In this document: piece after piece, positions 2,503 through 64,000 of the stretch
Layout: each line of letters opens with the position of its first letter
Numbering within the stretch: the stretch's first letter is position 1
Assembly: GCA_000310025.1 (NCBI GenBank)
Contig: FN649727.1
Location: 1,011,025 to 1,075,024, forward strand
DNA from: Ectocarpus siliculosus
Lineage: Eukaryota > Sar > Phaeophyceae > Ectocarpales > Ectocarpaceae
Direction: 5' to 3'
DNA: 64,000 nucleotides
Made by a program: the position numbers and the translations under genes
The notes under the pieces: model-generated
The model's input: the letters and a program-made list of their open reading frames with translations, nothing else
The model's database searches: none
What the model was told of the DNA's origin: nothing

Positions 2503-2524
2503 TTTCGGTGCCCTTGGTTCTCAG

Positions 2525-10690: not shown

Positions 10691-10790
10691 NNNNNNNNNN
10701 NNNNNNNNNNNNNNNNNNNNNNNNNNNNNNNNNNNNNNNNNNNNNNNNNNNNNNNNNNNNNNNNNNNNNNNNNNNNNNNNNNNNNNNNNN
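10691..10790. other. Assembly gap of 100 N
   Basis: Exactly 100 N, the usual placeholder for a gap of unknown size. The 20 bases just left (ending GTGCACACAGTA) and the bases just right (GTCGTCCGGCGCACACAGTA) are nearly identical, so the two contigs probably overlap or end in adjacent satellite copies. Confidence 0.99.
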
Positions 10791-12261
10791 TGTCGTCCGG
10801 CGCACACAGTACCAACACACGCCTTGTTCACGCGCACTCAGGTTTGATAAAGGGCGCTTCGTCGGACAAAGCTCTCACCCCAACCTTCTCCCGCCATGCC
10901 ATATCGCGCCCAGCGAAGTTCTGACTCCGTGCCTTCCAACGGAAGCCTATCTCGTTCACCCACTCTATCCTACGTTGCAGCTCTCCTCGCGAAACCAACC
11001 CCTTCCCCGACTATGCCATGTGGGGCCCTGTTGAGTTCTACCCTGTGCCCCTCGACGCATGCGTTTTCACTGGCACTTCCCGGCGCTGCCCCTCTCCTCG
11101 TCAAACCCCCACCCTTTTCCCGCCGTGCAATCTCGCTTCAAGCCAGGCCTCGACCCCGTGCCTCCAGACAAAGGCTATATTCACTCACACCCATCTGTGT
11201 TGCAGGGCTCCATGCCAAAGCATCACCTTCCCCGACTCTTCTCCCGTCATGCCATCTCGCGTCCCGCCGAAATCCTACCCCTTGGCTGCTTAAGCCCACC
11301 TCCCCCCGCCACACCACCAATCTCTTCCCGACCATCTGCTTGCCATGCCATCTCTCGCGTCCAGCCGAGGTTTGACGCAGTGCATCCACGCGCATGCCAT
11401 TTTCACTCACACCCACCTGCGATGCAGCGCTCTTCGCTAAACCAGTCCGTTCCCGGGCCCCGTTTCCCAGGAAGGTCGGATTGCTGTGCCTCCCAGTGCT
11501 CTCATTGTTCGCTCACCCTCAGCGTCACCACAGATCCACGCCGTACCAATCCCTTCCCCGACCCGTCTCCACCCATACCTTCTCGATTCCAGCCGAGCGC
11601 CGACTCTGTTCCTCCCGGCGTACAGGAAATTCATGAAACCTACTATGCCTGACATCACTCCCCGATGTACCGACCCTTCTCCCGCCATACAACTTCGTGT
11701 CCAGTTCAGCTTTGACGCTCCACCTCTCACCACATCGCTTGATCACACCAACCCACGTCCGCCGCGGGGCACCCGGCCGTATTAATCCCGTCCTCGACCC
11801 TTCTCTGGCAGAAACATGCCGCATTCACTCACACGTTCCTGCGTTGCGGGGTTCCTCGCCAAACCCTTTACGTTCCCAACCCTTCTAACGCCATGATATC
11901 TCGCGTCTGCAAATAGTCAAGCTTCGCCTCCGTGCTCCCCGTTTTACGCCAGGTCCGCTTTTATTGACCTGCGCGTGACATACATCCTCGCCAAGCCAGT
12001 CCCTTCTTCCGCAATGCCGTCTCCCTCCCAGCTGGGCTTCGATGCCGTGCCTGCCGACGCACGTCTTGACCACTCGCGCTGCTCGAGCACGACTCCTCGC
12101 CACATTTATCCCTTTTCCGAGCCATTCCAGGTCTCGCTTCCAGACGAGCCTCTCCCAACGCATGTCATATTCACTCACACGTTCCTACCTTGCAGCTCTA
12201 CGCCGTCACGCCAGTCAGTTCTTCGACTATTCTCCCAGCGTGCCATCTCGACTTAGCTAGG

Positions 12262-12432
12262 CTTGGCTGGAAGCGAGACTGCGTCACTGGAGAAGGGCCG
12301 GGGAAGAGACTCGTTCGACCAAGAGACCTGCAACAAACGTGAATGTGAGGGAACGAGGGAACGAGGCGTCCGTTCCAACGCACGTCTTGTTCACTCACAT
12401 TCGGCTTTGTTGCAGGGGTCCTCGCCAACCCA
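12262..12432. repeat. Example of the head-to-head composite module of the satellite
   Basis: An inverted unit (GGCTGGAAGCGAGA, GGAGAAGGGCCGG, ACTCGTTCGACC, CTGCAAC, GTGAATGTGAGG) meets a direct unit (CTTGTTCACTCACATTC, TTGCAGG, TCCTCGCC) across the junction GAACGAGGCGTCCGTTCC. The same junction, with the same order of blocks, is seen near 10320, 13150, 14790, 15540, 17270, 18640, 19050 and, more degenerate, 9840 and 16430. Confidence 0.7.
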
Positions 12433-15400: not shown

Positions 15401-18400
15401 ACCCTTCTACAGTCGTGCGATCTTGATTCCGGCCAGGCTTGGCTGAAACGTGGCTGAAAGGGAGATGCATGACCTGAGATTGGTTGGCCAAGATACACGT
15501 TTGACCGAGAGCCGTGCAATACAGGTGAGTGTGAGCTAACTAGGCATCTGTTCGAAACACACACTTCGTTCACGCACACTTCGCTTAGTTGCAGGAACCC
15601 TTGCCAAACCAGTCCCTTCCCTGACTCTTCCCCCGCCATGCCATTTCACTTCCAGTCCAGCTCCGACACCGTGCCCCGAAACGCGCGCCAATGGTTCACT
15701 CGCACTGATCTGCGCTCCAGGGCTCCTCGCCATACCAATCCCTTCGCAGATCCTTCTCCCCCCATGCCATCTCGCTACCAAGGCGATCTTCGACTGCATG
15801 CCCCGCAACGCATGCCTTGTTTACTTCCCTCCTTGCAGGGGCCCTTGCCAAACCAATCCATTTCCCAACCCTTCTCCCTGCACTACATCTGGTTTTCAGC
15901 CAAGCTCCAATCCGTTCCACCCGACACACGCTGTATTCACTCACAGTTCCCTCAGTTGCGTCCTTGCCATAGCAAAATCCCTTCCCCGACTCTTGTCCCA
16001 CCAGGCCGTCTCGCGTCCAGTCCAACTTAGACTCGGTCTCTTCCGTCAAATGCTTGCGATGCTGCGCTCGTCACTGCCGTTCTCGACCCTTCTGCTCACA
16101 TTTCATCTCGCCGCCAGTCGAACTGCGACTCTCCCTGCCTCCAAATACGCGCCTTATCAGTACAAGGTAACCTGCGTAGTTCTCGCCGCACGATTTCATT
16201 CCCCAACTCCTTTTCCCGCCATTCCACCTCCTTTCCGGCCGGGATCCGTTATTCCCTTCCAGGAGCGCGCCATGTTCACCTGATCAAACCTGTGATTCAG
16301 CTCTCCTCGTTGTACCAGGCCCCTCCCCGAGTCTTCTTCCGCCTGGCCGAGCTAAACTGGAGAAGGCTCGGCAAAGCAAATAGTTTGGCCAGGAGCACTG
16401 CCACGTAGGTGAGTCTTACACGGGGCTCCCGTGCTTCCCGCCACACGTCTTGTTCACTCACGCTCAGCTTCGTTGCAGGAATCCTTGCGAAACTGATCCC
16501 TTCGCGGACCCTTCCCCCGTCATACCATCGCATATCCACCGGAGCTCCGACTCCGTGCCTCCTACCACAAACTATACTCACACGACTCACCTGCGCTGCA
16601 GGGTACCCTGGCAAACCACTCCCTCTCCCAACCCTTCTCCCGCCATACCATCTCGCGTCCACCAGAGCCCGGACTCGACGTCTCCCGAAGCACGGCTTCG
16701 TGCCTGCCAGCCACCCCCGTGAACCACATTCGGCCTTTTTTTTCGCCATGCCATATTGCTTTCAGCCAGGCTCTGACTCTCTCCCTCCTGACGGACGGCG
16801 TGTTCACTCGCACTCACCTGGAGCAGCGATCCTTACCATGCCAATCCCTTCCCAGTCCCTTTTCCCGCCAGACCCTGTCGCGCCCATCCGACTCCCACTC
16901 CATACCTATGAAAGCACATCATGACCACTCACACTTCACTTCGTACGACCATTTTCAGGCATGAGCCCACTCGTTGCCACAAACCATTTCATTCCTCAGA
17001 CCTTCTCTCACCACGTCATCTCGCTCCTGACATAGCTCCAACCACATGCCTCTAGTCGGTCACCTTGTCCATTCAAACGAACCTAGGTAGTATCGCTTCC
17101 ACAACAAGTGACATCGCTCCTATCCAAACGTACCGATGGACGCTTCCCCCAATATGCCATCCCGATTGCAGCTAGGCTCGGCTGTAAGCAAGAGAGCAAG
17201 ACTGGAGAAGGGTCGGGGGGGGATTCGTTTGACCAAGGGCCCTGTACCAAAGGTAAACGTGAGTAAACGAGGAGTCCGTTCCAAACACATGCCTTGTTCG
17301 CTGACCCTCAGCTTCGTTGCAGGAATCCTGGCGAAACTGGTCCCTTCCCAGACCCTTACCCCGCCATGCCATCTCACTTCCAGGCAAGTGCCGACCCGGT
17401 GCCCCCCAACGCGCTTGTTGTTTAGCTTCGTTACAGCCTTCCTCGCGAAACTAATCGCATCCCCGACCCTCCTCCCGCCGAGCCATCTCGGGGCCAGCCA
17501 ACTCGGCTGGAGGCAAGATCGCGTGGCGGGAGAAGGGTCGAGGAAGGAATCGGTTTGCTCAGGAGCACTGCCACGTCGGTGATTCTGAGTGAACAAGCCG
17601 TCCGTTCCAAGCACACGCACACTCAAACTCGTTACAGGGCACCTTACCGATATATGTCTCCACCGACAGTTCTCCCGCCATCCCAGCTCGTATTCAGATT
17701 AGCTCCGACTCCGCGACTCCTATCACAGGCCTTGTTCACACTAACTCACCTGCGTTGCATAGAACCTCACCGCACCACGCCTCCATTCTCGACCATGCCG
17801 TCTCGCGTCCAGCCCAGCTCCGGCTCCATGCCGCCAAAGCATGCCTTGTTCACTCACACTTTTTGACCTCGCAGCTCTCCTCGCCAAACCAACCCGTTCC
17901 TTCCTCGACCATTTTGTCGCCATGCCATCTCGCTTCCAGACGATCTTCCGAACGGTTCCTCTCAACGCACGACACGTTCGCCCATTCAAGGTCACGATGG
18001 AGTCGTCCTCGCCAACCCAATCTCTTCCCCGACTCATTGCCCTCCATTCCATCTGGTGTACAGCCGAACTCCCCACTTGGTGTCTCCCATTGTACGCCGT
18101 TTTCACTCAAGCTCACCTTCGTTTCCGCTCTCCGCGCCATATCAATCTCCCTTCCCGACGCTTTCCTCACGTCATGCCCTCTCGCGTCTTGTCGAGCTCC
18201 GACTCCGTTCGCCGTGGCGGTCGTTGTGTTTGCTCACACGGCCTTGTGTAGCAGTGCTCCTCCCCATGCCATCCCCCTTCTCCTGCTATACCTTCCGGCG
18301 TTCAGCCAAGCTCCGACTCAGCACCTTCCTAAGCACGGTTTGTTCACTGACCTTACTTGCATGGTGCCACTCCTTTCGCAAACCACAGTCCTTTCCCCCA

Positions 18401-20260
18401 CTCTTCTCCGGCTCTCCCACTTCGCTTCCAGCGGAGCTCCGACGCCGTGCCTCTTGCACATGCATGTCATGGTCTTGCAGCTCTACGTCGTCAACCCAGT
18501 CCTTTCCCTGACCCTTCTACAGTCGTGCCATCTCCATGTCCACCACACTCAGCTGAAAGGGAGATGGCATGATGGAAGAGAGGTCGGCAAAAGGACCTGT
18601 TTGACCAAGAGCCCTGCAACACAGGTAAATGTGAGGGAACGAGGCGTCTGTTCCAAACACACGACTTGTTCACTCATGCAATCTCTCACGCCTATGTAGT
18701 CGAGCTTCGACGCCGTCCGTGCGTCTCGCTTGTCGTCAAGCCAGTCTCTTTCTCAACAATTCTGCCCACGTTCGCCTTGCCAACACAAGCACACCTGCGT
18801 GGTACCGGTCCTCGCCGCACCCATTCATTTCATCTCGCTCCCGGCAGAGATCCGACGCGGTCCCTCCAGGTGAACGCCGTGTTCACAAAAAAAAACTGCG
18901 ATGCAGCGCTCCTCGCCGTACCAGTCTCTTTCCCGCGATTTCTCCCGTCAAATGGCGTCCAGGTAGGCTCGCTGGCAGCGAGATAGCGTGCTCATGGAAG
19001 GGATCGGTTTTGCCAGAAGTTTTGCAACCAAGCTTAAGTGTGAGGGAATGAGGCGTCCGAGCCAAACACACACCTCGTTCACTCACCCTCCGCTCCCTTG
19101 GAGGGATCTTGCCAAACCAGTCCGTTCCCTTTTCGCGACATGCTTTCTCCCGTCCAGCCAAGCTCCCGCTCCGTGCCTCCCAACGCATGCCTTTTTCACT
19201 TAGGCGTTCCTGCGCCGCAGCTCTCCTCGCCAAACCACTCTCTCCCCCTATTCGTCTGCTGCCAAACCATCAGGCTTCCAGCCGAGCTCCAACTCCGTCC
19301 CCCCCAACGCACACCTTGTTCACGCAGATTTCCCTACGCTGTAGCTCTCCTTACTAGACCCGTCCTTTCCCCGACAGGTCTCCCGTCACGGTATTGCGCT
19401 TCCAGTCAAGCTCCAACTCCGTGCCCTGGGACACTCGCCGTAGTTGCTCCACCCTTCCCTTCGTTGGATCGCTTTCGCTCTTGAGACAGTTGTTCGCCAA
19501 ACAACCCCCTTCCCGGACCTTTCTCCCGGTCATCCTATCTTGTTGTCGGCTTAGCCCCGACTCTCTTCCCCCCATTGCACGCATTGTTCACTCACGCCAA
19601 CCTGCCGCGCTCCTCATCATCAATCCCTTCCTTGACCCTTCTCCCGCCATGCCATCTTGCGTCTAATCGAGCTCGAGTTCCTTGCCCCTCGCGTTTGCCG
19701 CGCTTTCGCATTCGCACCTGTGATGCAGCACTTCTCGCCATACCAATCTCTCTACCGACCCATACCTCGCCATACGACCTCTTGTCCAGCCAAGCTCCAA
19801 CCCTATGTCCCCCGACGTGCGCCATGATGACTGGCAGTCGCCCCCATGGCATCGCTCCTCGCCTTATCGAACCATTTCCGGACCCTGTTCCCGCCATGTC
19901 ATCTCGTGTCCACAGCTCTGACACCGTCGCTGCCAACCCACGCGTTGTTCACTGACCCTCTCTCCTCCGTGGCAACGCTCCTTGCCCAAAACCCGTCCTC
20001 CACGCGTATCTAGCCATGCTATCTCGCGTCTAACCCAGACTTCCTACCTTTGCACGCGCGCATTGTTCGCTCAAGCACATCCGGCCTCCTTGCCCAACCC
20101 TTACCAGACCCTTCTCCCGCCGTGCCATTGCGGGTTCCGCCTAGCTCCGACTCCGTACCTCCCAACGCACACACTCTTTTCTCACGTTCACCCGCGTGGC
20201 ATTTCTCTTCACCAGCCAACCCCCGAACGTTCTCCCGCATTAATCACAAGGCTAGATAGG

Positions 20261-28275: not shown

Positions 28276-29139
28276 GCAAACAAAGAAAAAAAAGCACCCG
28301 CTGTAATCAATGCACCGGCTGTGCCAACAAATCTCTGCTGTACAGCAACAACCACTGCCTTACAGCGTGCTACACTACAAGTTTGGAGAGGAAGGCACAG
28401 CTGTGATGTGCGGTGATGTGCTGTGCTGTTAGGCAGGACGTGTGTGTGTGGAGACCAAGAAGAGACCGAGGTTTTTTTTCTTCAGTAGGCGATATGGAGT
28501 CTACACCGAACTGCTGCTGCTGCTGTATAGTCTAGACTCTGTGTCGTAGCTCTTACCAACCTCTCCTAGCAAAAGGATACATAGGTTTCTCACACGAGCA
28601 AGGCTAGGTTCCTCACCCCAACACAACCCTAACCCTCACCCACGGCCAACGCACGGCCTAGCGGCCGCAAACTGGGCGAGCACGCCGCTGCGCCACTGCG
28701 AGAGGGCGCTGGAGAGGAATCCGCCCCGAACGGTGCTGTGTAGAACCAACGCCAAACAACGCCCGACCAATCAGAAAGCGTTATTGAAGAGAACAAAGAT
28801 GCAGCAGTTGATTCTTGTTCTCAAACGCCCGAATGGCGCTTCCTCTTCGGTTTTTGGGGTAGAAATATTCTTCCCTATAGAGCTAGTCCTCCCTTGCCGC
28901 GTCTGTCGGCCTCAAACCTGTTTGTGGCTGTTGCTATCATGCCGCCAAAACTGGCCAAATTTGCTGGTTTTCTAGCACAATATGTTGCGTTTTGGTACAG
29001 GGGATAGGCTTGTGTTGTCCCCTCCGTGTCACAAAATTGACATGGACGTCCATGGCTCTATATGCATGATGAGCCGCTGTTGCCGGTAGATCTAACCACC
29101 CCGTATTAGTATCCAAACACACGAACATTGTCGAGGGGA
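28276..29139. other. Intergenic stretch 5' of the ankyrin gene
   Basis: No convincing coding sequence. It includes a two-unit telomere-like motif (AACCCTAACCCT, about 28625-28636) and a CTG run near 28511-28524. A promoter for the ankyrin gene should lie here, but no specific element can be named. Confidence 0.4.
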
Positions 29140-30570
29140 ATGGAACTTGTAGAGCTCGACGAACACGGCAAGGACAAATATGGCATCTCGAGAGGCCCCA
29201 TCCCCATCATCAACGCCGCCGGGAGAGGTTTGTCGAAAATCGTCAGGAAATTGGTCGAGCAGGGACACGATGTATCGCTAACAAACGACGCTGGTTTCAC
29301 GGCTCTGCATACTGCGGCCCACCACGGCCACGCCGACATCGCGAGGGTACTGGCCAAGGCCGGCTCGGATCTAGAGGCGACGACCCTCGAAGGCGACACG
29401 CCGCTTCATTTGGCCACGAGCGTGGGGGAAACTGCAGCGATGAGGGCCCTGATCGAAGAAGGCGCTTCCGTCGACAGCCGTAATCCCGGAGGGGCGACAC
29501 CGCTGTACATTGCGGCGATGCAGGGACACCTGGGCGCGGTGAAGGTGCTCCTTCACGCCAAGGCAAACCCTCTGCTGACTTGGTCATCGGAATCTTCAGG
29601 CAGGAGCTTCGTCCCGCTGGAAGTCGCGGCGCAGACCGGCCGGTCGGCAGTGGTGAGCGAACTGTTGCGCGAATTCGGTATCCGTTGTTGTGGTGGGCCG
29701 AGTGGTGGGTTAGATGCTCTCCGCGTCGCCGCAGTGTATGGACAGGTTGACATAATGTCGATGCTCATGGATGCCGGAGTGGTGGATCCTGTCGGTCTAG
29801 CCCTGCTCGCCGCCGTCGGGAGCGGCAAGGAGGCAGCGGTAGGGTTTCTTTTGCGGCAGCAGGAGGAGCGGTGGCAAACTTCTTACGTGAACATCGCCCG
29901 CGACGACGATGGCTTAACGGCTTTGCTGTGGAGCTTCCGGGGTAACAAAAACAAGCCGTGCAACCCCAGGATCACGCGGCGTCTTGTGGACGCAGGGGCG
30001 GACACGACCTCGGCCGTGCAGCTCCGCGCCAAACGCAGTCGCACCTGCGTCAATGTGACGCCACTGGAGTACGTGAACGATTGGGCCCTTCGTGAAACCA
30101 ACGGAGACCACCCTGCAACCGACGAGCAACTGCTCCGGCTAGAGGCTACCCGCCGCGTGCTTTTGCGAGTGGTGGCCGTTCACGCAGTTTCTTGGATATG
30201 GCCCAGCGATGCCCCACTTCTCGCACGTCCCGCAAATAGCCCGAGAACGGCCAAGCATTCTCCGACTCAGCTGACGACGGTGCTGCCGGTCTTGAGGCGG
30301 AGGGCGGGAAGGCGTGCTTTGCTTTGGGACACGCTGTTCAGGTGGGCGGTGACGCAGTTTTTCGACCGAATTGTTGAGCGGTTTTATTTGGTTTTGTCCT
30401 GTGCCATGATTTCGCGACGTAGCGAAACGGTTTTCCTACGTTTGTTGTGTTCCTGTCTTTGCTCTGGTCGACATGCTCCCGTCGAGGTTACCAATAAAAG
30501 AGACGTCGGGAGATCCCTGGGCGCCCACACGGTGACGTATGCCAATGGGTCGCGCGTTGTTATATTATGA
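29140..30570 (+). CDS. Ankyrin-repeat protein
   Basis: A single long frame of 476 codons from ATG 29140 to TGA 30568-30570. The first ~150 residues hold four ankyrin repeats. Clear consensus cores are GFTALHTAAHHGHADIARVL, GDTPLHLATSVGE and GATPLYIAAMQGHLGAVKVL. More degenerate repeats follow (PLEVAAQTGRSAVVSELL, DALRVAAVYGQVDIMSML, LTALLWS) up to about residue 290. The C-terminal part is basic and contains AVHAVSWIWPSDAP, a tail I associate with a multi-copy brown-algal ankyrin family. Ankyrin repeats mediate protein binding; the partner is unknown. The last ~60 codons are less convincing, and a splice near 30350 is possible. Confidence 0.8.
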   Translation: MELVELDEHGKDKYGISRGPIPIINAAGRGLSKIVRKLVEQGHDVSLTNDAGFTALHTAAHHGHADIARVLAKAGSDLEATTLEGDTPLHLATSVGETAAMRALIEEGASVDSRNPGGATPLYIAAMQGHLGAVKVLLHAKANPLLTWSSESSGRSFVPLEVAAQTGRSAVVSELLREFGIRCCGGPSGGLDALRVAAVYGQVDIMSMLMDAGVVDPVGLALLAAVGSGKEAAVGFLLRQQEERWQTSYVNIARDDDGLTALLWSFRGNKNKPCNPRITRRLVDAGADTTSAVQLRAKRSRTCVNVTPLEYVNDWALRETNGDHPATDEQLLRLEATRRVLLRVVAVHAVSWIWPSDAPLLARPANSPRTAKHSPTQLTTVLPVLRRRAGRRALLWDTLFRWAVTQFFDRIVERFYLVLSCAMISRRSETVFLRLLCSCLCSGRHAPVEVTNKRDVGRSLGAHTVTYANGSRVVIL

Positions 30571-46267: not shown

Positions 46268-46744
46268 TCACTCTACGTGGCCAATCCTCGAAGCAGCAGC
46301 AGCAGCAGCAGCAGGAGCGCCGGAAGGGAACACCGCCGCGGCCACCCCGAGCCACAGCCGGAAGGACTCCTGGTCGTCGCAGAGCAGAACCTCCTCCCCG
46401 CCCTCGCGGGTTTCTATCACCAGCCCGCGTTCCTGCTTCTTGCTGCTGCTGCTGTTGCTGCCATCCGCCGCAGGCGCCGCCGCTCTCAGCCCGAGCAGCG
46501 TCTTCCTCTTCCCGGCTATCTCTGCCACCCACAGGGCGCCGCCGGCTTCCCTGCTGTCGCTAATCTCCACCCGGTCGGCGATGGCGGCCGACGACCGTGC
46601 CTGCGTGGCGTACTCGCGGAAAACCCGTACGTTGACGGCGGTGTTAGCCGACATGAGGATGCGCTGGCGGCGGAGGGGCCCTCCCTGCCTCGCGAAGCGG
46701 AGGGCGTCCGCTCTGGGGATGTCGAGCTCGCCCTCGTGCTTCGC
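46268..46744 (-). CDS. Terminal exon encoding a PH-like domain
   Basis: A minus-strand open exon of 158 codons runs from a good acceptor (CGGCCGGCAG, ending at 46745) to a TGA at 46268-46270. It begins AKHEGELDIPRAD. Later segments, GGALWVAEIAGKRKTLLGL and EEVLLCDDQESFRLWLGVAAA, resemble the last strands and the C-terminal helix of a pleckstrin-homology fold, with the Trp in the helix. A Ser/Lys-rich loop and a poly-Ala tract (from a CAG repeat at 46294-46317) are inserted. It starts in phase 0, compatible with the phase-0 end of the exon at 48109-48237, so it may be the last exon of the BRCC36-type gene. PH identity is by pattern only. Confidence 0.5.
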   Translation of the reverse strand, partial: AKHEGELDIPRADALRFARQGGPLRRQRILMSANTAVNVRVFREYATQARSSAAIADRVEISDSREAGGALWVAEIAGKRKTLLGLRAAAPAADGSNSSSSKKQERGLVIETREGGEEVLLCDDQESFRLWLGVAAAVFPSGAPAAAAAAASRIGHVE

Positions 46745-46778
46745 CTGCCGGCCGAAATCAGTTTGATGGGGGGGGGGG

Positions 46779-47166
46779 GTGTACTCATAGTCGTGCATGC
46801 CGTAGTCGTTAGACCATTGACCTCGCATCCCTACAAAGCCGGGACGGAGCACGCCGGGTTCTCACCGGACCAGGCTCTCACATCACCAAGCGCGAAGTGC
46901 CGTGAGGTATTCGGCGAGTCGCATGAAGGGTGAGCTGCATCCTGCTAAGGGTGTTCGGCATCTTGTGCTTACTTCCTTGCGTACGGATGACAGCTGCGTA
47001 TGCCTTAATTTGTTTTCTGGTGCTTTCACTTCCAGAGACAGTTGTAAGCACTATGTAACTGCCTCGAAGATGCTTGACTATTTTAACACAACGTGGTGCG
47101 ATCATCCCCCTTGCGCGGAGTGAGGGTTCTCCACCCCGCACAACATGATCTACTCGACCACCATTG
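46779..47166 (-). repeat. ~390-bp repeat, copy 1 of an inverted pair
   Basis: The reverse complement of this segment matches 48909-49306 with about eight substitutions in ~390 bp (roughly 98%). The outer end is a homopolymer (G-run on the plus strand) followed by GTGTACTCATAGTCG, about 35 nt from the acceptor of the PH-like exon. The inner end is CGACCACCATT, again next to a G-run. An open frame of about 95 codons crosses both copies but matches no known family. A non-autonomous element is likely. Confidence 0.85.
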
Positions 47167-47831
47167 GGGGGGGTCATATTACTTGCTAGCCATGGTCATT
47201 TCAGCATTGGTTGCGCATCCCTTGTGAGATGTAGAGGCTGCTTCTCAAAGAGACATCACTAGCAGCAACTTGAGGAGGGTTGGGGGGGACTGTTTACTGC
47301 AAGGAGAGGGGGGACGAAGGGGGTAGAGCGAGGGCTTTCGAAGGAGATCGGTTGTCGGTTCAGCCATGTTTTTAGCATGTCTCCCGAACACTATCAAATG
47401 CGAAACAGAGCAACAAAGGTATCATCTCACTCCATGACTACTTTAGGAAACGAAAGTACGCGGCCCTGGACATAAACAATATATGTCACGTGCACAATTA
47501 CAGTCAATAGACACCCGTACCTTCATCAGCATCCTAGAGACATTTTTTCAATAGACTGCTCTTCCACTTCTGTCCGTGCCCACCAAGCAACAGGCGGCGA
47601 GACACTCGTCCCCACCACAAGCAAGAACGAGGCCAGAAGTAAAACAAAAAATCAAGGAGTAACGAAAATGATCCTCCTCAGACCACAACACCACGCGGAT
47701 AACGTACGGAGCCCGCCCCATACACCAACATGTACAACAAACACCTTGACCACACGGGATGAACAGCCCAAAACAAAATGTGCGAATGGACGTGGTAGGT
47801 AGGAGCGCTTTCAACATCAAAATTAGTGTAC

Positions 47832-47952
47832 CCTCCTTGCAGCAGGGCGTACACCACGTACAGAACCTCTAAAGCCAGATAGTTGTACGTGCAACTTCTC
47901 TCGAGACGGGCCAACACCTTGGACAAGTACGCGAGGAGGGCTTGCTTCAAAC
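47832..47952 (-). CDS. Possible exon, helical and hydrophobic
   Basis: On the minus strand an acceptor-like GCGAGTAG precedes 40 codons reading QALLAYLSKVLARLE, then CTYNYLALEVLYVVYALLQGG, followed by a GTACAC donor. The peptide is amphipathic and free of low complexity. Its phase does not fit the neighbouring exons directly (it needs one leading base and ends two bases into a codon). It may be an alternative exon, part of another gene, or chance. Confidence 0.25.
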
Positions 47953-48108
47953 TACTCGCACACATCCTCACAAAACAAAGAGCACCCGACACCCATAGCT
48001 GGAGCACCAGGAGTATGCCCTGTCCTGGCCCGCCATGATTGACAGAACCTCCTCCGAAGCTGTGGGAATCCACCCGCCGAAAAGGGATTACTATCAATTC
48101 ATTTTCAC

Positions 48109-51100
48109 CTGGAACGCCCCTATCCCGGCCGAGCATGGTGCTCTAAGCTTGGCGCTAGCGCTAGCGAGGGCCCCTTCTAGCTCGCCAGGAGTCAGCAAAG
48201 CTCTCAGCTCGACTTGGTGTTGCTCCAACGCAGCCGCCTTTTGTTTTGTATCGTTTTTCACCACGAAAGAGTGACAGCGAAACGCAGAAAGCCGGAGAGA
48301 AAATCATCGACATCAGAAATATTCACTCCGCACGGGGAGAGAGAGAAACACGCGAAATTACATAAGCGGTTCGTTGATCGTCGACAACACACATGCATCC
48401 CTTCCGAGTCGGCAGAGCACCCTCCTTCGGTTTGTTCGCATCAATAAAACCACGACAGACAGTTGGAGGGGGTCTCGTAGGTTTCAATGCATTCAGGCGT
48501 TGCTCAAGCCCAAAAAAACGGCCACCACGACGTGAACACCAACACACTCGCAGCCAATAGAGCTTTAGACACGGGTCGGTGATTCTTCAGCAGAACCAAA
48601 AAACACGAAAAGGGGTCGAGAAAGGCACCAGGCGGGAACAGCAGTATCGGGAACGAGCTTGGGCAAAGGACTGAACCGCTGCATACAACGTGTTAATGAT
48701 TTCAACACTTTGTTAATCCAGCACATAAAAAAAAAAGAAAGAATATCCCTTCTTTTTCTCCTGCCCTACCCCCCCCTCGGTGTTTGCCATCGGGATTGGG
48801 CATTCGTCGCTTGGCAACGACGATGTAAAACAAGCCATTCACTTTTTGAACTCGGCAAGCAGGATACTGATTTTGTTTTTTACCTCTGGTTTTTTTTTGG
48901 CGGCAACCATGAATGGTGGTCGAGTAGATCATGTTGTGCGGGGTAGAGAACCCTCACTCCGCGCAAGGGGGATGATCGCACCACGTTGTGTTAAAATGGT
49001 CAAGCATCCTCGAGGCAGTTACATAGTGCTTACAACTGTCTCTGGAAGTGAAAGCACCAGAAAACAAATTAAGTCATACGCAGCTGTCATCCGTACGCAA
49101 GGAAGTAAGCACAAGATGCCGAACACCCTTAGCAGGATGCAGCGCACCCTTCATGCGACTCGCCGAATACCTCGCGGCGCTTCGCGCTTGGTGATGTGAG
49201 AACCTGGTCCGGTGAGAACCCGGCGTGCTCCGTCCCGGCTTTGTAGGGATGCGAGGTCAATGGTCTAACGACTACGGCATGCACGACTATGAGTACACCC
49301 CCCCCTCCCCCCCCTTTCGTGGCGATCACCGCGCAAGTCTGGGACTCCGAGTACAGGGGGAAGGCAAGCCATAGGGCGACAGCGACAAATCACAAGTAAC
49401 ACGCCGCTGCCACGGAATACAATATCGCCAAAAACAATTCGACAGGAGACGATTTGGCATCTAGCTACCCCAGGCTAACCACCGCCTTTGGGACGGTCCA
49501 ATGACAGACAGAAAAAAAGGAGAAACAAAACTAGAAACCGCGGGGGGAGAGGGCCTATACATCATCTTGTCCTTTCAGGACTTCTATCTCTTCCCAGCCA
49601 ATGAACTGACAGAAATCGGCTCAGCACACGTACCCGATTTTGAAGGATGTTGAGCTGTGAGCGGAGAGTCTGGGCGAGGGGCACCGCGGAATCGCCCGAG
49701 AGGGCGGCCAGGCTCTTCGAGTACACCGCCGAGCAGAAAATCTTTGAGAGCAAGTCGATCCTGGCGAAACAGCGTGAAGCACGAACGCCACAACAACAGA
49801 CAGCAACACGCAGAAAGCGCGTCATGGACAACGGTAACGGCAAGACCAACGGCATGAGCAGCAACAAACAACAACTGTTACAAGGGTTAGGGTTAGCCAA
49901 TCCAATCGACTTGTACTGCGTAGGAAGGAGGAATGCGATGGACCACAACAAGCCATCCATGGACGATCTGTCTACTTCAGCCCCTCCCCTGTCCCCCGCT
50001 CCGCTGCGCCCACACCACTCAACGGGACAAAAAAAGCAACAACTCCCTCGGCGCACTGCTGTGGCAGAAAACATGCACAGCGAAAGATGGCGACGTCTTC
50101 AATGAGCGCTAGGAAACGGCGGTGCTAGTGTTTCCCAAGGGGCCGTACATCCGCAGGCTAAAAGAACAGCCAAGGCCAGCAACAAATAGATGAGGAAGGC
50201 CCTCCCAATATCACCGAACCCGCTCATCTTACCCTCCTCCTCTTCTCCTTGTTCTGGTGTCTTGGGGTGATTCGGCGTCGAAGGGTTCTTCCTCTCCGAC
50301 CATGGCGTCGTTCTGCCTCAAAGCAGCAAGGTATCCCGCCCTCTCCTCGCCAAACAGGGTGTCCTATGCATAGTGAACAACAACGTGGTGGTAGTGAGCG
50401 ATGTGTGGTGCAAACAAGTTATGGAGTCAGATGAATAAGACCAAACGAATGAGAAAACTGAGGCAGCAGAGCGACAGACTTACACAGAAGGGGGGGAGAG
50501 TGAACGAGACCGACCGACAGACAGACAGACAGACAGACAGACGGACGGACGGACGGACAGAGAGACAGAGAGACAAAGAGACAGACAGACAGACAGACAG
50601 GCAGACAGACAGACAGAAATAGAGGTACTGAGACAGAGACACAGACTCATATACTCGGAAAGCACGCAACATTCAAGGGAGAACAAAGAGAAGAAACGAG
50701 AGGAGTGAAGTCGCTCCCGAAAACCTCCCAGAATAGAACTGGTTGTCGGTGATGTTGTCTTAAGGCATCTCGTACCGCTCCGATCTCCAACCAACACCTC
50801 CGCTGCCGCATTCTTCCAAGGTAAGCAATCGACCCTCCCCGGCAAAAAAATTACCAGATGGAAGGCATTCACAAAAACACGCCCAAAATACACCAGCAAC
50901 AAGAAAGTGCACTCTTCTTCGCTCTTCTGAATCAAGCGGTAGAGCAGCGGCAACCATCCTGATGCCTGAGTCAGCTAGAAAAGACTGCCACGCAGTGACT
51001 GGCGGATAGATGGCATGCAACACTCAACGTTACTGTTTCAGTAGGGAACGCATATAGAAGAGCAAACACAGCAAATGCACAGGCTGGTCAACGTGCGTTC

Positions 51101-52486: not shown

Positions 52487-52534
<48 letters not shown>

Positions 52535-54759: not shown

Positions 54760-56902
54760 CTGTAGGTGGGCGCGGCGGCCAGAGAAAATTGTTTTTGCAC
54801 CAGCTGGCATCAGCAGATCCTTCAACGCGTAGGCTACGACAGACGCGAGATAAGCCCGGTACCCAGCAGGTTGTCTGGCCCAGTTGCGGCAAAGACTTTC
54901 GACCTTCAACACGCCCCATTCGATTATTTAAATAACTGCTGTGGCATTTTCTCGAACGACTACCGAAGTCTTTCAGTGGTTGTACAGTGTATTTTCTACA
55001 AAAAAACAACCAAATCAACATGGTACGGGTGTCATACCCACGGGGATGGAGGGATCAGCGATTGACAAGGTCACAAGGGAACGACGCGTGATTGTCTGAT
55101 CTGTACTGCGCTGCTGCCCAGTAAATCCGCGTGGAGCTATGTAGCATAGAATACAGCAAATCTACAGAATAATTTCATCGCAAATTGCAAAGCTTGTTTC
55201 ACTCCAACGATAGAGAATGGAGCTCCAGCTTTCTACAGATCAGGTTTACGAGGTTTAACACTAGACTAGACCATCGGGGTCTCGTTACCCAGGTGTTCCA
55301 GCCTGTGGTTGTTCTTAGGTCTCCCAAATCGGGTTGTGGTGTCTGTGTCGGATAAAGCCAGCATGTGATACAAATTCCACGTCGAACTCAGCAAATTTCG
55401 TGGGTTGCAAGAGAAGCAAAACATAAAATAAGGACACAAATGTCTCTGCTGGCAAGGCATCGAGGAGAGTCAACACGATTTCGGTTTCGAAACGCGGATG
55501 ACTTCATGCCCACGCTCTTTCCTTACTCTCACTTCAATTCTCACCTGAGTGTGCGGACGCTGCTGAAGCAATACCGCATCATTAAGGAATAATATAAACA
55601 CACACAGAAAGACTGCCCATTCGAGATATACCCACAGTCGAACGGGATGTGGTGGAGTCTTTTCAGTGAGTGAAGGGAAACCGGCTGGGTATTGGACTTA
55701 TTTCGCATCATGCAGCACGCGCGTATTCTGCCGCACGGAAGCCTACAGCGCAACCACGGCTTTATAACTATCTACTGACGGCGGGTTTTCTTCACCCGGG
55801 CTTCCCCAAAACTGCTGCGGCAAGGTTTCTCTCTATTTTACTCGCCCGTAACTACTTATGGTACTACTACTACACTGGAGTACCACCACTCCACCACAAC
55901 TGTTGCAACAGTTGATCTCATACTGCAGCAGTATACCACTCTTGACATACTTTCTGTCGACAGCGGAGGAATCCCGCCGCAGCTGCAATAAGGCAATTGA
56001 ACCCACCTCCTGTTTCTCCGTCGACATGGCATGGCTGGCACACGTGGTGAAGGCTTGCCAGCTCAGGGTGCACCGTTGTAACGACATTGTTCCTCTCCAA
56101 CCGGCGCTCGGCGGCGGCACGTGGACGTGCTGCTGTGTGTCTGTGTGTGAGCTTTGAGACGCTGCTTTGAGGGGCCACGCAGACAGAACTTCACCCATAC
56201 CGCCCATGCCGCGCCCCAACCGAACCCAAACCAAGCACAAGGGATTATCCCGCCGTTGATCCCGCCGCTAAATCGCATATCTATTCCATTCGGAATCTGG
56301 TCACCGCCCCACAGCGGTCTACACTCCATTCGCACCATCTTCCATCCCTTCGCAACAGCAGAACAACTGGTGTATTTCCCCTCTGCTCCTTTTCAACGTC
56401 ACGTGTAGTTTGGTGAGTCGAGATTGTCTGTCGTTGTGCGTGCGTACCACTGCTGTACTGCGAAGGCAAACCACGACTTGAAAAGAGTGTTGATGCGTGC
56501 TTCCGTTGCTCTCACGCGAGCTGGCAATCGTCCTCTATATACCTTTGTCTACGAGCATGTCGCTCAAGTGCGCTACCTTTACACGTTGCTGCCAATCAAG
56601 GTGATGTCGCGGGTCTGGCGGCTGTACAGGTCGGCGGCGTTTTTTCGGCCGTGCTTGTGTAGATACCCTTGGCCGTATGATGGAGGCCGGAAAGAGCCCC
56701 CTGGGAAAAAATGCATATTTGTACCACAAGAGATCCAACATGTTTGCTGCTGACTGCTGCTGCTACTGCGTTCGCCTTTTGTTTCCGAGATACTGTAGAT
56801 GTTTCATGTGGTTGAGGGTTCAACCTTGACAAGAAGGTTGCGGAAAAAGAAAAAAATGAGCTGGAGCCCTCTTTTTTTTATCGCGCCAACGGCGAACATG
56901 TA
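54760..56902. other. Region 5' of the BRCC36-type gene, up to the retrotransposon
   Basis: Should contain the first exon and promoter of the BRCC36-type gene on the minus strand. A minus frame near 54790-54860 reads AYLASVVAYAL, which could be the first MPN helix, but no splice to VMGLLLG is evident. A perfect 16-bp palindrome (AACTGTTGCAACAGTT) is at 55898-55913. On the plus strand, 56560-56630 reads LYTLLPIKVMSRVWRLYR; it is too short to assign. Confidence 0.4.
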
Positions 56903-57234
56903 TGTTAGGTAAACTACGCGGGGTGCAGCAAGCACGTTCTGGACGTTACTTGGGGCACTGGGTAGTCGGCCGTGTTAGGCCGAGAGAGAGAGATTGAGAG
57001 AGAGTTGGAGAGAGGGTGGGAGAAGGAAACTTGATTGGAGAGAGACGGTGGTGGTGGTGGAGAGAGAGAGGAAGAAGTGAGCGCAGCACGCACGCAAGCT
57101 TCATCGCACCAACCACGCCAAAAGGGTCCCCGTGACCGCACCGATGGTACCCTGCAACACATGAAATTCCCAAGACGTATCCCCCTGGGATCCTCGATCC
57201 TCACGACCAGATACTGCTGCGAGTATATCTAACA
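56903..57234 (-). repeat. 3' LTR, 332 bp
   Basis: Begins TGTTAG and ends CTAACA, a perfect 6-bp terminal inverted repeat of the TG..CA type. It contains GA-rich runs (GAGAGAG) and a GGT triplet run. It differs from the visible part of the other LTR at two positions only. Confidence 0.95.
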
Positions 57235-57487
57235 TCCCCCCTGCTCGCAACAGTTACTCACTGAAAACTTCGCGAACACTCGATATCTCAACCAAAATAC
57301 ATCTCTCCAAGAACATATGCCATCAATACTCGACCAGAATAACATAAGAGGGAAAAACAATTCAAAGGAACATGAATACTGCATCGCGCGTAACAAATAC
57401 TTGGCGCGAGAAATGAAAGAAAACGGGAAACAAAACGAGAAACAAAACAAAACCAAAACACAACCAATCAGAAAAACAATAAAATGT

Positions 57488-60400
57488 TCATGCCAAATTC
57501 ATTGCAAAATCACGGTGAGACTCGAAAACGTCCTTCGGCAAGCTCTTCGTGAGAAAATCTGCACGCTGGTACGGAGACGGCACGTGGATCACCGAAATTT
57601 CCTTCCTCTCTACCAGTTCCCTGAGGAAATGGTGCCTTACATCTATGTGCTTCGAGTTCGAGTTTGAGATGGGGTTCTGCGCTAGTTGAATCACCCCCTG
57701 GTTGTCCTCGAAGACGGGGATACACGGCATGCCGACCTGCGGCAACATGAAACGCCAAATCTGCCTCAAAAACAAAATCTCCTTCACTGTGTCACCAAGC
57801 GCGACGTACTCTGCTTCTGTCGTCGAAAGCGTGACGCACTTTTGCGTTCTGGAAAACCAAGACACAGCGCCTCCTCCACACGTCACGATTCCCCCTGATA
57901 CCGACCTACGGTCTGCTGCCTTGCTTGCAAAGTCCGCATCAGCGTACCCCTGCAAGCTGAACCCTTACAATCGGTCCTGCACACATCTAGATCCTGTACC
58001 CCTCTGAAACGAAATACCAAAGTGACTCGTCCTCCTCGCATAGCCTAAAATATCCATCGCTGCATTCCAGTGTACCAGCTTCGGAGATGCGCAATACCTA
58101 GCTACTGCCCTTACAGCATTCGCAATGTCTGGCCTAGTTTGAGTCGCCAGCCACATCAACGATCCTACCAGCTCACGAAACGAAAAGTCTGTCGCCACCT
58201 CATCCGCATCAAAATCAGAAAGCTTCACCCCCGAAGACATCGGAACGCTCTTACCTCCCACTACTCCATATTCTGCTGCTAGCTCGTCCGTGAAAGTCTG
58301 CTGAGAAATCGTCAACCTTCCGGTCTCCTTGTTCCTCTCGTAAAAGCACCCAGAATACCATCTCAACTCTCCCAGGTTCTTCACTGGCGCGGACTTGTTA
58401 AGGTCGGCGCCAAACTTGTCACATCTCTCCCTCTCTCCGACAGCAAAAATGTCATCTACATGTACTACCAAAACCAAAACAACACATCCATCCTCAATCA
58501 AACGAAACACACAAGCATCGGCCATGCACTGCTCAAAACCTAACGCCACTAAACACCTCTTCAGCATAGCATGCCACTGCCTAGATGCCTGTCTCAAGCC
58601 ATACAGACTCTTGCCTAGTTTTACAATCATTCCAGATAGAGCTCCACATCCCTGTGGCAAACGCATGTACACGTCTTCCTCCAACTCCGAGCGCACAAAA
58701 GCTTGCTCAATATCGAAATGACACAAGTCGAGATTCAACTCGCACGCCAACGCAGCCAACATCCTAACACACGAAACAGAAACGGTAGGCGCGTACAGCT
58801 CTCCAAAGTCAATGTACTCTCTCTGCATATCACCTCTCGCTACAAGTCTCGACTTCACCTTAGTGGGCCATCCAAATTCATCTGCCTTCCAATCGAATAC
58901 CCACTTAGCGTTAATTGCGTTCTCCACTAGTTGCTACTTCGCCGGAGTAAAAGTCCCTGCTTCCAACAAGCCGTAAAACTCCCTTTGCATAGAGTCGCTC
59001 CAAAGGTGCCGGTGCTCCGACGCCATGGCCTCTTTGTAGCTCTTGGGGACACGAAGGTCGCTGGCCTGGCAGTGAGGAAGGTCAGGGCGTTGCTCCGGCG
59101 GGCGCTGGTCTCGCAGCGTGGCGTCGATGTCTTCCCGGTTGGCGAGGAGCGTGGCAAATGCGAGTGGAAAGCCCGCTCCTCCAGCCCCCGGGTCCACCGC
59201 TGCGAGTGCTCCCGCCTGTTCTCCGGCCCCCGCTCCCCCCGGCTCTCCGGCCTCCGCCCCCCCCAGCTCCCTGCGCTCCTCATCCACCGCGCTCCGAGCC
59301 TCCAGCATCGACACCAGAGTGTTCTTGTCTAGCATCGAGATGAGTCCTGTGCTGTGCCTCGTGCCCGATCTCGTTCGGCTTGGCAGCCGCGGGTCTATCA
59401 TACCCTCGGTCTTTGTACCCGGGCGAAGCTGCCGCATGGCGTGAGCCGTAAGCGGGGGCATCGCGGGGTCCGGCGGCGGCCGCTGGTCTGGATCGAGGGT
59501 CGCCAACGGTGATGGCGAAGAGGCAGAAGACGGCTGGCCAGGGGCGGGGGTCGCCGACGGTGGCGGCGAAGTGGCAGAGGGCGGCTGTGAAGGCGTGGGA
59601 GCGGACGACGGCGTGGTCGCTGGCGGCGGCGTTGCGGCAGGTGGCGTTGCGGCAGTCGAAGGCGTCGGTGCTGGGCCAAAGTTGATCGAGACGACCGGCG
59701 GCGTGAACGGGGGGGGTGTCGGTGCAGCGGTGATACGAGCGGAACCCCCCTCGCCGGCTGGCGCCGACGTCACCCACGACACGTTGTTGGTGTAGACGAC
59801 GCGACCGGTGGACGCCTTGAGGACCTTGACGGTGCCGCTCGGGTGGTTGTCGCCGCCGTTCAGGTAGAAGCAGAGGGTGGCCTGGTCGTCGAGCTTGGTG
59901 CGGCGATCCTCGCGCATGAAGCCGGGCTGGAAGAACGGCAGCACGCGGAATGGCCCTTGCTCGCCGGTGAACATCTCGTGCGGCGAGCGCCGCCCGGGGT
60001 TGGCCTTGGTCGCCGACTGGTTAAGAGCGTCGGCGGCCCACTTCGCCGATTCCATCCAAAGACGGTCACCGCGCTCGTCGAGGCCGGGGATGGAGGCGAA
60101 GTCGACGTTGAACACACGGCCAGCGCTGCGGCGGGCGGCCATGCCGGCCTTCATAATCCGCCAGATGGCGCTCTCGACGACGCCGTTGTACTTCGGAGTG
60201 CCAGGCGGGGTGAACTCGACGCCGATGCCGTTGTCGTCGCAGAATTGCCGGAAGTCGCCACGGGTCCACTCGGTGCCGTTGTCGACGCGGAAACACTCGA
60301 TGCGCCCGAGGTCGTACCGCCCCACGTCCGCCAGCAGCCTTTTCGTTGCCGCCAGCGCGTCGGACTTCCGCCGGAGACCGTAGACCTTGTTCCACCGCGA

Positions 60401-61690
60401 GGCGCTGTCGACGGCGACGAACAGGTAGAGGTTGCCGCCCAGGGAAGGCACCAGCGGTCCACACAAGTCCAGGTGAACACGCCCGAGTGGCTTGGACGCC
60501 CGCGCTCCCGGCCCCCGCGGCACCGACCCTCGCCTGCCCTTCGCCTTCATGCAGTCCGTGCACGGTTCCAGCTTGCCGGTGAGCACGATGCCTCTCTGCT
60601 GGGCGGTTTCTCTCAAAAGGGGCTCGCAAGCGTGGGCAAGGGAGCGGTGGAAGCGGTTGATGTCAACGGACTTTTCAGTCGAACCAAGAGCAAACGGGGA
60701 CGCACCAGGGCCAAGCGCGGCCGCACCGAAGTCAAAATCAGCACCCCCATCAATGCTATCCAAAACAGCAGCTACATTCGCAGCATCAGTCTCAGGGATA
60801 AACGCGGGGAAAAACTCTTGATACGGGGTGTCATCATAGCCATCCATGAGCTGCTCGTCGGTGAGCACACTCGTGTCTCCAAGATCCATACCCGGAAAAG
60901 TACCTACACAAACAAACTCGGACGCCGAAGAAGGTACTACGCCGGCAGAGCCGGCGGGCGGGACGCTCTCACTCGCAGGTACTACACTGGTGGGACCAGT
61001 GGGCATGACGCTATCAGTCGAAGGTACTACGCTAGCAGAGCCAGCGGGCGTGACGCTCTCACTCGAAGGTACTACGCTAGCAGAGCCAGCGGGAGGGAAA
61101 CGCAACACGGACACCAATGATTCCGCGGAGCCCCCTTTTTGGGAAGGGGAACGCGTGGAGCCAACGGCGGGGGCGGGATCGGGGGCAGTCACGAATGCAG
61201 GCAAAGCAGAAGAGTCTACTATAGTTGCAGATGGGTCGTACGGTAAGCGCATGGCATATGCTGCAGACGCTTTTTCCTCCCTAGCAAATAGCAGTCCATT
61301 TTGGAGGGTTGCACCACGCTCGTCGTGCAGGATTTGTTGCTTTCGAGAAACTGCATGCGTTGAAAACAAATTGAAGCTCAGGTTCTCTACTACAGACACG
61401 TCAGTCAGCTTAACACACATCGTCGTTTTTTCACCGTTCTCATCCTCCTGAAAGAAACTAAGGTTGATGCTACCGATAGCTTGCACTTCTAGCAGTCGAC
61501 CATCACCTACGACGACATACTTTCTATTTGCGGGGATCTCCTGCAGATCGTACATGTGTAGGCTACTGTTGGTAAAACTGTTGCTTGCACCTGAATCAGC
61601 TACCCATCTCTCGCTACCAGGCGGCCCCTCACTAGATTCCACACTCAGCAAAGACGAAGCAGACGCAGCAGACTCAACTCCAATCGTCAC
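57488..61690 (-). pseudogene. pol: pol: protease, integrase, reverse transcriptase, RNase H; two internal stops
   Basis: One minus-strand frame from 61690 to 57488, interrupted by TAG at 58934-58936 (just before the RT domain) and TAA at 57965-57967 (just before RNase H). Domains in order: protease with ADSGAS near residue 32; a linker with four 15-residue repeats (PAGSASVVPSSESV type); integrase zinc site HX4H and CTDC near residue 350-385; core Asp in HLDLCGP, Asp in RVDNGTEW and Glu in NGVVESA; a Pro/Thr/Ser-rich linker; RT with KWVFDWK, FDIEQAF and the catalytic VHVDDIF; RNase H with YADADFA, TEAEYVAL and EDNQG, ending in FLTKSLP. All catalytic residues that I can check are present except that the usual YVDD is HVDD. 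The stops make autonomous activity unlikely unless they are sequence errors. Confidence 0.92.
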
Positions 61691-61697
61691 TCCTATC

Positions 61698-63627
61698 CTA
61701 CCAAAAAAATCTTCCGGGGTGAGACTTGCCTAGGGGCACCGATTGTGCCGTGCAGAGGTGGAGGTAGCCCGAAGATGGAGGCGCGCCAGGAGAAGGGGCA
61801 GAGGACGAGGAGGAAGCGGTGCTGCTGCTGCCCGCGGGGGGGGGCTGACGTGGCTGCTCGGATGATGAATCTTGACCGGCGGGAGGGTAGTAGACGTAGT
61901 GGATCCCGCCGTCAGATGAACGGCTGTCTTCGTACCCGGAGGAGTAGCTGTAGCTGTCCCCGCCGCCGGCGTAGTGGGCGTACCCGGCGTCGTGGTGGCT
62001 GTCGTCGTAGGAGTAGCCTTCGTCGTAGTCGCCGTAATCTTCGTAGTAGCCACCATCATCGTGGGCGTAGTACACAACGTACGCCTGCTCTCTTCCGTGG
62101 CCAGAACGCGCGTGCCCCGAGCCTCTCCCTGCCCGATCTCTCTCGGCACGCCCGTCGCTGCTGTGGCGTCCCGCGGGCCCACGACCCCCCGGGTGACGCC
62201 CCAGACGACCACCAGGCCCACGTCCACGAAGAGGTCGCGGGGGGGGTGAGGCTTGGCTCCAGCCACCGCCACCATGACCGGTGTGGTGCTGTTGCTCTAT
62301 CCTCACCCATCGCCCGCCACCGCGGCCGGGTCCCGGCGGCGGTCTACCCCCTCGCTGGCTACCGCCGCCACCGCGGCTGCCGCCGCCCGAGCGACGTTCC
62401 TCGGCGCCCTCTCTCGAACGCGCACGCCGCAGTTGCTGCTGGAGACGACACTGCTCGTTGGTGTGAAGCTCGGACTGGTGGTAGCGGCAAAATCCGCCGG
62501 GGTCGTCGTTGAACACGTCACTATTTTTCTTCTCTCCGTCACGATTTTGGCCGCCAGCTGCTGCCTGACCGCCGTCTTGACCCCAGGATGCCCCCCCACT
62601 GCCCCCGCCGCGCCGGCCCATGCCGGACGCGGCGAGAGCGAGCTCCACCTCGCGCCTCTCCCCCTTGCTCCTCTCGCGCTCCATCTCCACGTGGGCGTCC
62701 CTCACCACAGTCTCAAGGGTACGCAACGTCAGGACATCATGGGCAAGCAGTATTCCTTTTTGCACGGCATACAACGAAGAGGGAAGGCCACGAGCAATGT
62801 CTTTGTTGGCATCTGTTTCATCCTTAATCGTGCCTACTGATGCGAGACGCAGGCGAAGGGCCTCTGAGCGGGCAATGTAATCCTGTGGACTCTCGGACTC
62901 TTTCATCTCCAACTCCTTCCAGTCCTGCTCCAACCTCGACTTTTCTGACTGCTTTTTCTCCTGATAGAACTCGGTCACTATTTTCCAGCCCTTTTGGGGA
63001 CTCTCACACGCCAGAATCAAGCTCTGAATCGGGGGATACATAACCTTGCTTATGAGGATATTCCACAGTTTGAAAGACTTGTCTACCACTTCATTTCCAA
63101 AAAGTCTCCGAAGGTCTCCTACATTCACACCCCTCTTCCCGACCTTGACCTCGACCTCCAGTTCCAACGCATCATGCACACCCTCCTCCTGAAAATATGA
63201 AATCATCTTACCACGAAAAATATCAAACATAATGTACAAGTCCTGCTCCTTCTTTACACTACCAAGCCAAGGTTCGATTTCTGAGCCTGGATTGACACGT
63301 AACGTGCCTGAGCGGGGCAAAGCCCTGTTGTTGAGCGATGGCCTCAGCTGTCGCCTTGGCCGCTTGCGCCACGATGTGTGCGACGCTGCTGGGGTCGTTG
63401 AATGTGGCTGGTGTACCCTGGCTGGAGGGTGATGGTTGGTTGCCAGTAGGTGGGACTGGGTTGCCGGTTGGAGTGGCTGGGTTGCCGGCTGGTGGTTGGG
63501 CAATGGTGACTTCACCCTCGTTGATCCTATTGGCTTCGAGTTCGGCTTGCACTCGTTGCTGGACGATCTCCTCCACTTTTTGTTGTAGCTCTTCCCCGCT
63601 GAGGGCGGAGAGGTCGATGTCCTCCAT
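61698..63627 (-). pseudogene. gag: gag-like capsid gene, frameshifted
   Basis: The likely start is ATG 63627 (MEDIDLSALSGEELQQ), opening a ~100-codon coiled-coil and Pro/Thr-rich segment in one frame. The main capsid body (YIMFDIFRGKMISYF, FKLWNILISKV, then ESPQDYIARSEALRLRL) is in the next frame, so the frame changes near 63300-63330 (a +1 shift) inside GGCTTTGCCCCGCTC. The open frame also extends upstream to 63671 in the body's frame, but that part reads as out-of-frame sequence. A zinc knuckle of the form CX2HX4HX4C (CRYHQSELHTNEQC) is followed by an Arg/Gly-rich and Tyr/Asp-rich tail. The frame ends at TAG 61698-61700, overlapping the start region of pol, which is in a third frame. Confidence 0.8.
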
Positions 63628-63722
63628 GATGTTTGGTGTTGTGGGAGTCTACCGATTGCGCGTGACTGCACAACCCCCGGATGGCTACGCCCGCGCGCAG
63701 ATACCGTGATATCGCACTAGTG

Positions 63723-64000
63723 TGTTAGGTAAACTACGCGGGGTGCAGCAAGCACGTTCTGGACGTTACTTGGGGCACTGGGTAGTCGGCCGTGTTAGGC
63801 CGAGAGAGAGAGATTGAGAGAGAGTTGGAGAGAGAGTGGGAGAAGGAAACTTGATTGGAGAGAGACGGTGGTGGTGGTGGAGAGAGAGAGGAAGAAGTGA
63901 GCGCAGCACGCACGCAAGCTTCATCGCACCAACCACGCCAAAAGGGTCCCCGTGACCGCACCGATGGTACCCTGCAACACACGAAATTCCCAAGACGTAT
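63723..64000 (-). repeat. 5' LTR, partial (278 of ~332 bp visible)
   Basis: Aligns without gaps to 56903-57180, with two substitutions in 278 bp (about 99.3% identity). It is cut by the window edge. Confidence 0.95.

Follow-up and report, generated by a model that had tools for sequence, protein, structure and literature searches.

An inverted pair of SINE-like repeats around one exon of a BRCC36-type gene in Ectocarpus siliculosus, probably the result of two chance insertions

In the genome of the brown alga Ectocarpus siliculosus, a single short exon of a BRCC36-type gene lies between two near-identical repeats of opposite orientation, one in each of the flanking introns. This arrangement raises the question of whether the pair influences the splicing of the enclosed exon or simply reflects the insertion of mobile elements. 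The analysis covered a window of 64,000 nucleotides (contig FN649727.1, positions 1,011,025 to 1,075,024 of the forward strand), and all coordinates below refer to this window. The features considered are as follows.

46268-46744, minus strand: last coding exon of the BRCC36-type gene (open frame, acceptor GGCAG/GCG).
46768-47165 (core 46779-47165), minus strand: copy A of the repeat, in the same sense as the gene, with its C-tail beside the last acceptor.
47167-47222, minus strand: possible degenerate older copy (3' end), a weak candidate that ends in a C-run directly 5' of copy A.
48109-48237, minus strand: 129-nt exon (43 codons, phase 0), based on splice sites, BRCC36_C scores and decoys.
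48912-49309, plus strand: repeat copy B, located in the upstream intron and antisense to the gene; its C-tail runs on as C7-T-C8.
49634-49760, minus strand: upstream exon encoding the BRCC36_C helical domain (PF18110, 42.8 bits in the unspliced ORF).
2419-2509, plus strand: diverged relative of the repeat, truncated at its 5' end so that the 3' end and the C-run are left, close to another coding stretch; found with a model of copies A and B and with BLASTN.
2764-2840, minus strand: diverged, 5'-truncated relative, found in the same two ways and opposite in orientation to 2419-2509.

According to the BLASTN analysis with the dust filter on, the two arms (46768-47165 and 48912-49309) are the top-scoring self-match of the window (97.74% identity, E value printed as 0.0). 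The arms are 398 nt long, 98% complementary (identity at 389 of 398 bases) and separated by 1746 nt. Without the C-runs, the arm core comprises 387 nt and contains eight substitutions and no indels. Distances of 674 and 943 nt separate the exon at 48109-48237 from the arms. The gap between copy A and the acceptor at 46744 is 23 nt, and that between arm B and the upstream donor at 49634 is 324 nt. An earlier sequence-only reading of this DNA had claimed inverted copies of about 390 bp with about 98% identity, located in the introns that flank a 129-nt BRCC36-type exon whose skipping would preserve the frame. The copies were confirmed, with the first coordinates corrected by no more than 11 nt; splice sites and BRCC36_C homology agree on the intronic position of the arms, and phase 0 on both sides of the 129-nt exon bears out the statement on the frame.

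As for the gene, the Pfam analysis indicated the JAB domain (PF01398, 24.8 bits) and the BRCC36_C domain (PF18110, 42.8 bits) on separate minus-strand ORFs. Both features by which BRCC36 proteins are recognized, the JAMM motif in the MPN domain and the BRCC36_C domain, were found, and a two-exon join assembled by eye matched BRCC36 chains in the PDB with an E value of about 1e-23. A search for literature on BRCC36 in Ectocarpus found none. The splice sites checked were the donors at 49634 (CGG/GTACGT) and 48109 (CCAG/GTGAAA) and the acceptors at 48237 (AAAAG/GCG) and 46744 (GGCAG/GCG), so that the 129-nt exon is bounded by AG and GT. The last exon encodes a C-terminal extension that closes with a stop codon and contains no Pfam domain above the cut-off.

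The open frame of the 129-nt exon is by itself weak evidence, since stop-free intron windows of this length (355 of 1683) and mechanically derived phase-0 candidate exons (175 in the span) are abundant. The exon encodes the terminal part of the BRCC36_C helical domain and some sequence after it. When it is joined, the BRCC36_C profile is complete to position 81 of 81, and the Pfam score is 50.7 bits, compared with 40.7 bits when it is skipped. In a decoy test with 57-residue constructs, the true junction scored 55.0 bits and the decoy acceptors, 19 of 82 possible ones, scored 40.5-43.5 bits. The gain with the exon and the decoy result therefore indicate, by homology, that the exon is very probably real. 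In the PDB, phmmer found no matches for the spliced C-terminus at E values up to 1, and three ribosomal matches at chance level (E 0.88) for the C-terminus of the skipped form.

Copies A and B share the same limits, AATGG at one end and GAGTACAC followed by a C-run at the other, and their flanks are unrelated; therefore, the repeat looks like an inserted element and not like a product of local duplication. No third full-length copy was found by BLASTN within the 64-kb window, and the ends of the element are thus defined by a single pair. A model built only from copies A and B additionally detected positions 2424-2499 (26.7 bits, E 3.8e-8) and 2816-2772 (16.1 bits, E 6.2e-5). BLASTN, with a query that included part of the G/C-run, gave an E value of 3e-6 for each. 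The limits 2419-2509 and 2764-2840 come from a four-sequence tail model that has both relatives among its inputs. These two relatives, about 44 kb from the arms, are anchored at the C-run end of the element. Copies that share the C-run end alone have the look of 5'-truncated retroposons, and since this is what is expected of such copies, the two relatives support the retroposon reading. They also constitute a second inverted pair of the same family in the window, much more diverged than the first, which appears to flank another coding stretch; the ORF of this putative stretch had no Pfam matches.

The sequence at 47167-47222 scored 12.4 bits (E 0.0069) with the four-sequence tail model and 4.6 bits (E 0.19) with the model of copies A and B only; as a control, 40 first-order Markov resamples of the window reached at most 12.0 bits and the reversed window 7.1 bits. 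The position of this sequence at most suggests that an older relative was already present and that copy A went into its C tail. Used on its own, the terminal motif GTGTACTCATG is a poor probe for further copies, because it has 20 matches with up to two mismatches against 12.8 expected (one of 100 shuffles reached 20). Searches with repeat patterns gave no matches in viral contigs (three patterns) or in prokaryote genomes (one pattern), which is expected and uninformative for a eukaryotic repeat. Rfam additionally recorded a match to MIR8622 within the window.

The repeat is short (387-nt core) and has a C-rich tail and no terminal inverted repeats. Reading from the 5' end of the element, the open stretch is at most 95 codons long in each copy. 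It bears no sign of coding constraint, since all seven substitutions located there change the residue, and the ORF that contains it had no Pfam matches at E values up to 0.1. At the 5' end of both copies, an A box without mismatches is found at position 6 and a B box with a single mismatch at position 63, in tRNA-like spacing. Both boxes were present in 10 of 5000 shuffles, and boxes as good occurred at 40 of 18,176 sampled window positions, the copies themselves included; in both counts the range of spacing was set after the motifs had been seen. Rfam showed no tRNA, 5S or SRP match at E values up to 5 in the region 46700-49400, and ARAGORN found no tRNA in the window. The sense strand contains no TTTT, which gives no support to a pol III reading because 1105 of 2000 shuffles lack it as well. 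The 3' end of approximately 75 nt is common to copies A and B and the two truncated copies. No clear target-site duplication was seen at the flanks of copy B, and copy A is flanked on both sides by C-runs that mask any such duplication. The repeat is accordingly called SINE-like here, a designation short of proof, and was probably mobilized by a LINE. Its pol III-like head may offer a minor clue to how short LINE-dependent elements arose in such genomes.

Several other classes were considered and rejected. A MITE or another DNA transposon with terminal inverted repeats does not fit, as there are no such repeats and the complementarity of the ends was matched by 190 of 1000 shuffles. For a solo LTR, the limits AATGG...GTACAC (antisense GTGTAC...CACCATT) provide neither fitting ends nor fitting flanks; trimming of 1 and 2 nt gives TG...CA ends, yet the flanks of neither copy show a duplication. 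As for known RNA families, the sole Rfam match in the region 46700-49400 (E up to 5) was a chance-level ylbH outside the arms. The idea of an introner arose since copy A and 2419-2509 each have their C-run end close to an apparent acceptor; it was rejected because neither intron equals an element. Folding of copy A alone gave z values of -1.2 and -2.0 for the two strands, and no structured RNA is claimed within the arm.

The transcript segment from 49760 to 46268 (3493 nt) was folded by minimum free energy (MFE), with co-transcriptional splicing left out of account; 382 of the 387 arm bases are paired arm to arm in this fold, so that the pairing presumed in the sequence-only reading holds in silico. 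The predicted energy of the arm duplex is -847 kcal/mol, compared with -191 to -204 kcal/mol for five shuffled arms. Exon skipping, circular RNA or hairpin-derived small RNAs would be physically possible outcomes of such pairing. One explanation of the locus, modelled on inverted Alu repeats, is that the two introns pair and that the exon at 48109-48237 either becomes a circular RNA by back-splicing or is left out of the transcript usefully often. Besides the near-complete predicted pairing and the distances of 674 and 943 nt between arms and exon, it can appeal to the back-splicing driven by inverted Alus in the flanking introns of human genes, as reported in the available part of PMC11263572, and to the circRNA loci called in the kelp Saccharina, according to the available part of PMC6916402; this methylome paper was the only relevant one on circRNA in brown algae or Ectocarpus among the matches listed. 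Back-splicing would use the exon's own two sites, which are far from the duplex. For skipping, however, the required acceptor at 46744 lies just 23 nt beyond the duplex. Such closeness could promote its use, or the duplex could occlude the site; skipping is therefore not clearly favoured. If this acceptor were blocked, the last intron would be retained, and the protein would continue after the exon with VKMN and then a stop. In addition, the exon completes BRCC36_C, and skipping would therefore remove the end of a conserved domain. The prevalent mode of alternative splicing outside animals is believed to be intron retention rather than skipping (PMC6142364, in the part available). Taken together with a fold that disregards co-transcriptional splicing, these points make a regular effect of the Alu type unlikely, although a splicing function for the inverted pair is possible.

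It is also conceivable that the pair, once transcribed, forms a hairpin that is processed into 21-nt small RNAs, and that these silence the dispersed family in trans. The predicted 387-nt near-perfect duplex would suit such a role. The accessible portions of two studies of Ectocarpus give it some context, namely small-RNA reads per bp of 0.84 for transposons against 0.13 for introns (PMC4513859), the association of AGO with 21-nt small RNAs and the origin of about 15% of RISC-associated small RNAs from TEs (PMC12867755). On the other hand, splicing may outrun the processing of the hairpin, and the latter source reports altered expression of few TEs in ago mutants; we regard this role as very improbable. 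Still slightly less credible is the combination in which an unclassified SINE family with a pol III promoter forms a hairpin of about 390 bp that yields both a circular or skipped exon and small RNAs directed against the family. Long, near-identical inverted arms might also recombine and leave the exon in both orientations among haplotypes, but the sole orientation seen fits the gene in phase and domain continuity, and an inversion would take the exon out of the mRNA and disrupt the gene, which makes this the least plausible of the alternatives. A local inverted duplication or an assembly artefact, instead of two insertions, would agree with the proximity of the two full copies and with the lack of a further full-length copy in the window. 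Against this stand the sharp difference of the flanks at both ends of the element, the eight core substitutions between the arms and the related copies elsewhere in the window, and such an origin is highly improbable as well. The likeness of the arms could result from gene conversion between them.

The reading preferred here, and held with considerable confidence, is that of two chance retroposon insertions with at most a minor effect and no selected function. On this view, a single family of short, non-autonomous retroposons would have inserted twice, recently and independently, once into each intron next to a real 43-codon exon of the BRCC36-type gene and in opposite directions. Retroposition itself would have proceeded with the probable help of a LINE partner that recognizes the 3' end of approximately 75 nt and the C tail. 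Copy A would have gone into a C-run that lay shortly before the last acceptor and may have been the tail of an older copy; a pyrimidine run would thereby have been preserved beside the acceptor at 46744. The effect of the pair would be limited to low-level skipping, back-splicing or small RNA. With regard to the sequence-only reading, its anatomy and the arm pairing in silico stand, and the account of origin differs in emphasis, as it is now placed on two insertions of a dispersed retroposon.

The available part of PMC12477816 is consistent with such a background, since it describes abundant LINE-dependent short elements in Ectocarpus, TE insertions within 81% of genes that are very weakly related to expression, and a TE fraction of which 53% lies less than 5% from the consensus. 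A rough estimate, with the intron share and genome size taken from that part of the source and 110,000 internal exons assumed, puts the number of exons per family that are flanked by an inverted pair of the same family between 0.1 for 500 copies and about 88 for 6000 copies. The arrangement is most likely due to chance and represents ordinary intronic TE architecture. Should the arms pair in vivo, the locus, with one exon, one near-perfect pair and a preserved frame, would offer a clean natural test of the effects of inverted retroposons on splicing or small RNA beyond animals and plants; should they not, it would be an ordinary example of intronic TE load.

In comparison with known systems, the gene shares with BRCC36, a K63 deubiquitinase, the JAB/MPN motif region and the BRCC36_C helical domain, and differs from it in the last-exon C-terminal extension without a Pfam match above the cut-off. 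The repeat resembles RTEX-N1_Ec32 of Ectocarpus, by the description in the accessible text of PMC12477816 and not by sequence, in being short and non-autonomous. According to the same text, the LINE-dependent elements of Ectocarpus are common in introns and include many young copies, and the copies studied here are likewise intronic. The 3' end is shared with a LINE in RTEX-N1_Ec32, whereas in the present repeat it is common to the truncated copies. RTEX-N1 is about 600 bp long and the present repeat about 390 nt. The latter has pol III-like boxes at its 5' end, whereas the authors of that source could not determine the origin of the 5' region of RTEX-N1, the commonest LINE-dependent short element of Ectocarpus. 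With the human inverted intronic Alu pairs, as presented in the available part of PMC11263572, the copies have in common that they are SINE-like, opposite in orientation, exon-flanking and able to pair. In contrast to those pairs, the copies described here have no known relation to Alu, and one of their arms abuts the downstream acceptor.

The last exon of the BRCC36-type gene (46268-46744, minus strand) encodes a C-terminal extension of approximately 158 residues, for which a Pfam search returned no matches above the cut-off. Two AGAC tetranucleotide arrays apparently lie within introns of the same gene:

50507-50617, AGAC tetranucleotide array
52488-52534, AGAC tetranucleotide array

An LTR retrotransposon of the Copia type, located on the minus strand at 56900-64000, is apparently situated directly upstream of the BRCC36-type gene. 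RVT_2, integrase and gag domains were identified in this element. Comparison of the window with itself revealed direct matches between 56900-57180 and 63720-64000 with 98.9% identity, the second of which reaches the window edge. The element is a young insertion.

In addition, two diverged relatives of the SINE-like repeat found in the BRCC36-type gene lie within 2419-2840, in mutually opposite orientation. They bracket what appears to be an exon belonging to a gene on the plus strand. Downstream of this region, the ORF at 4075-4410 showed similarity to alpha/beta hydrolases with a score of 23.7 bits, slightly under the Pfam cut-off of 25.8.

A strong GC skew (-0.22 to -0.33) was noted across 8001-20000. 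This region is rich in internal repeats with 65-84% identity, which are direct for the most part. It also contains long ORFs, and a Pfam search returned no match for three of them. Ankyrin repeats were found in the plus-strand ORF at 29110-30570.

Finally, the Rfam family MIR8622 was matched over its full length at 680-890 on both strands (206 bits on the plus strand and 201 bits on the minus strand). The sequence forms a long, near-palindromic hairpin, and the match may represent an inverted-repeat element rather than a true miRNA gene.
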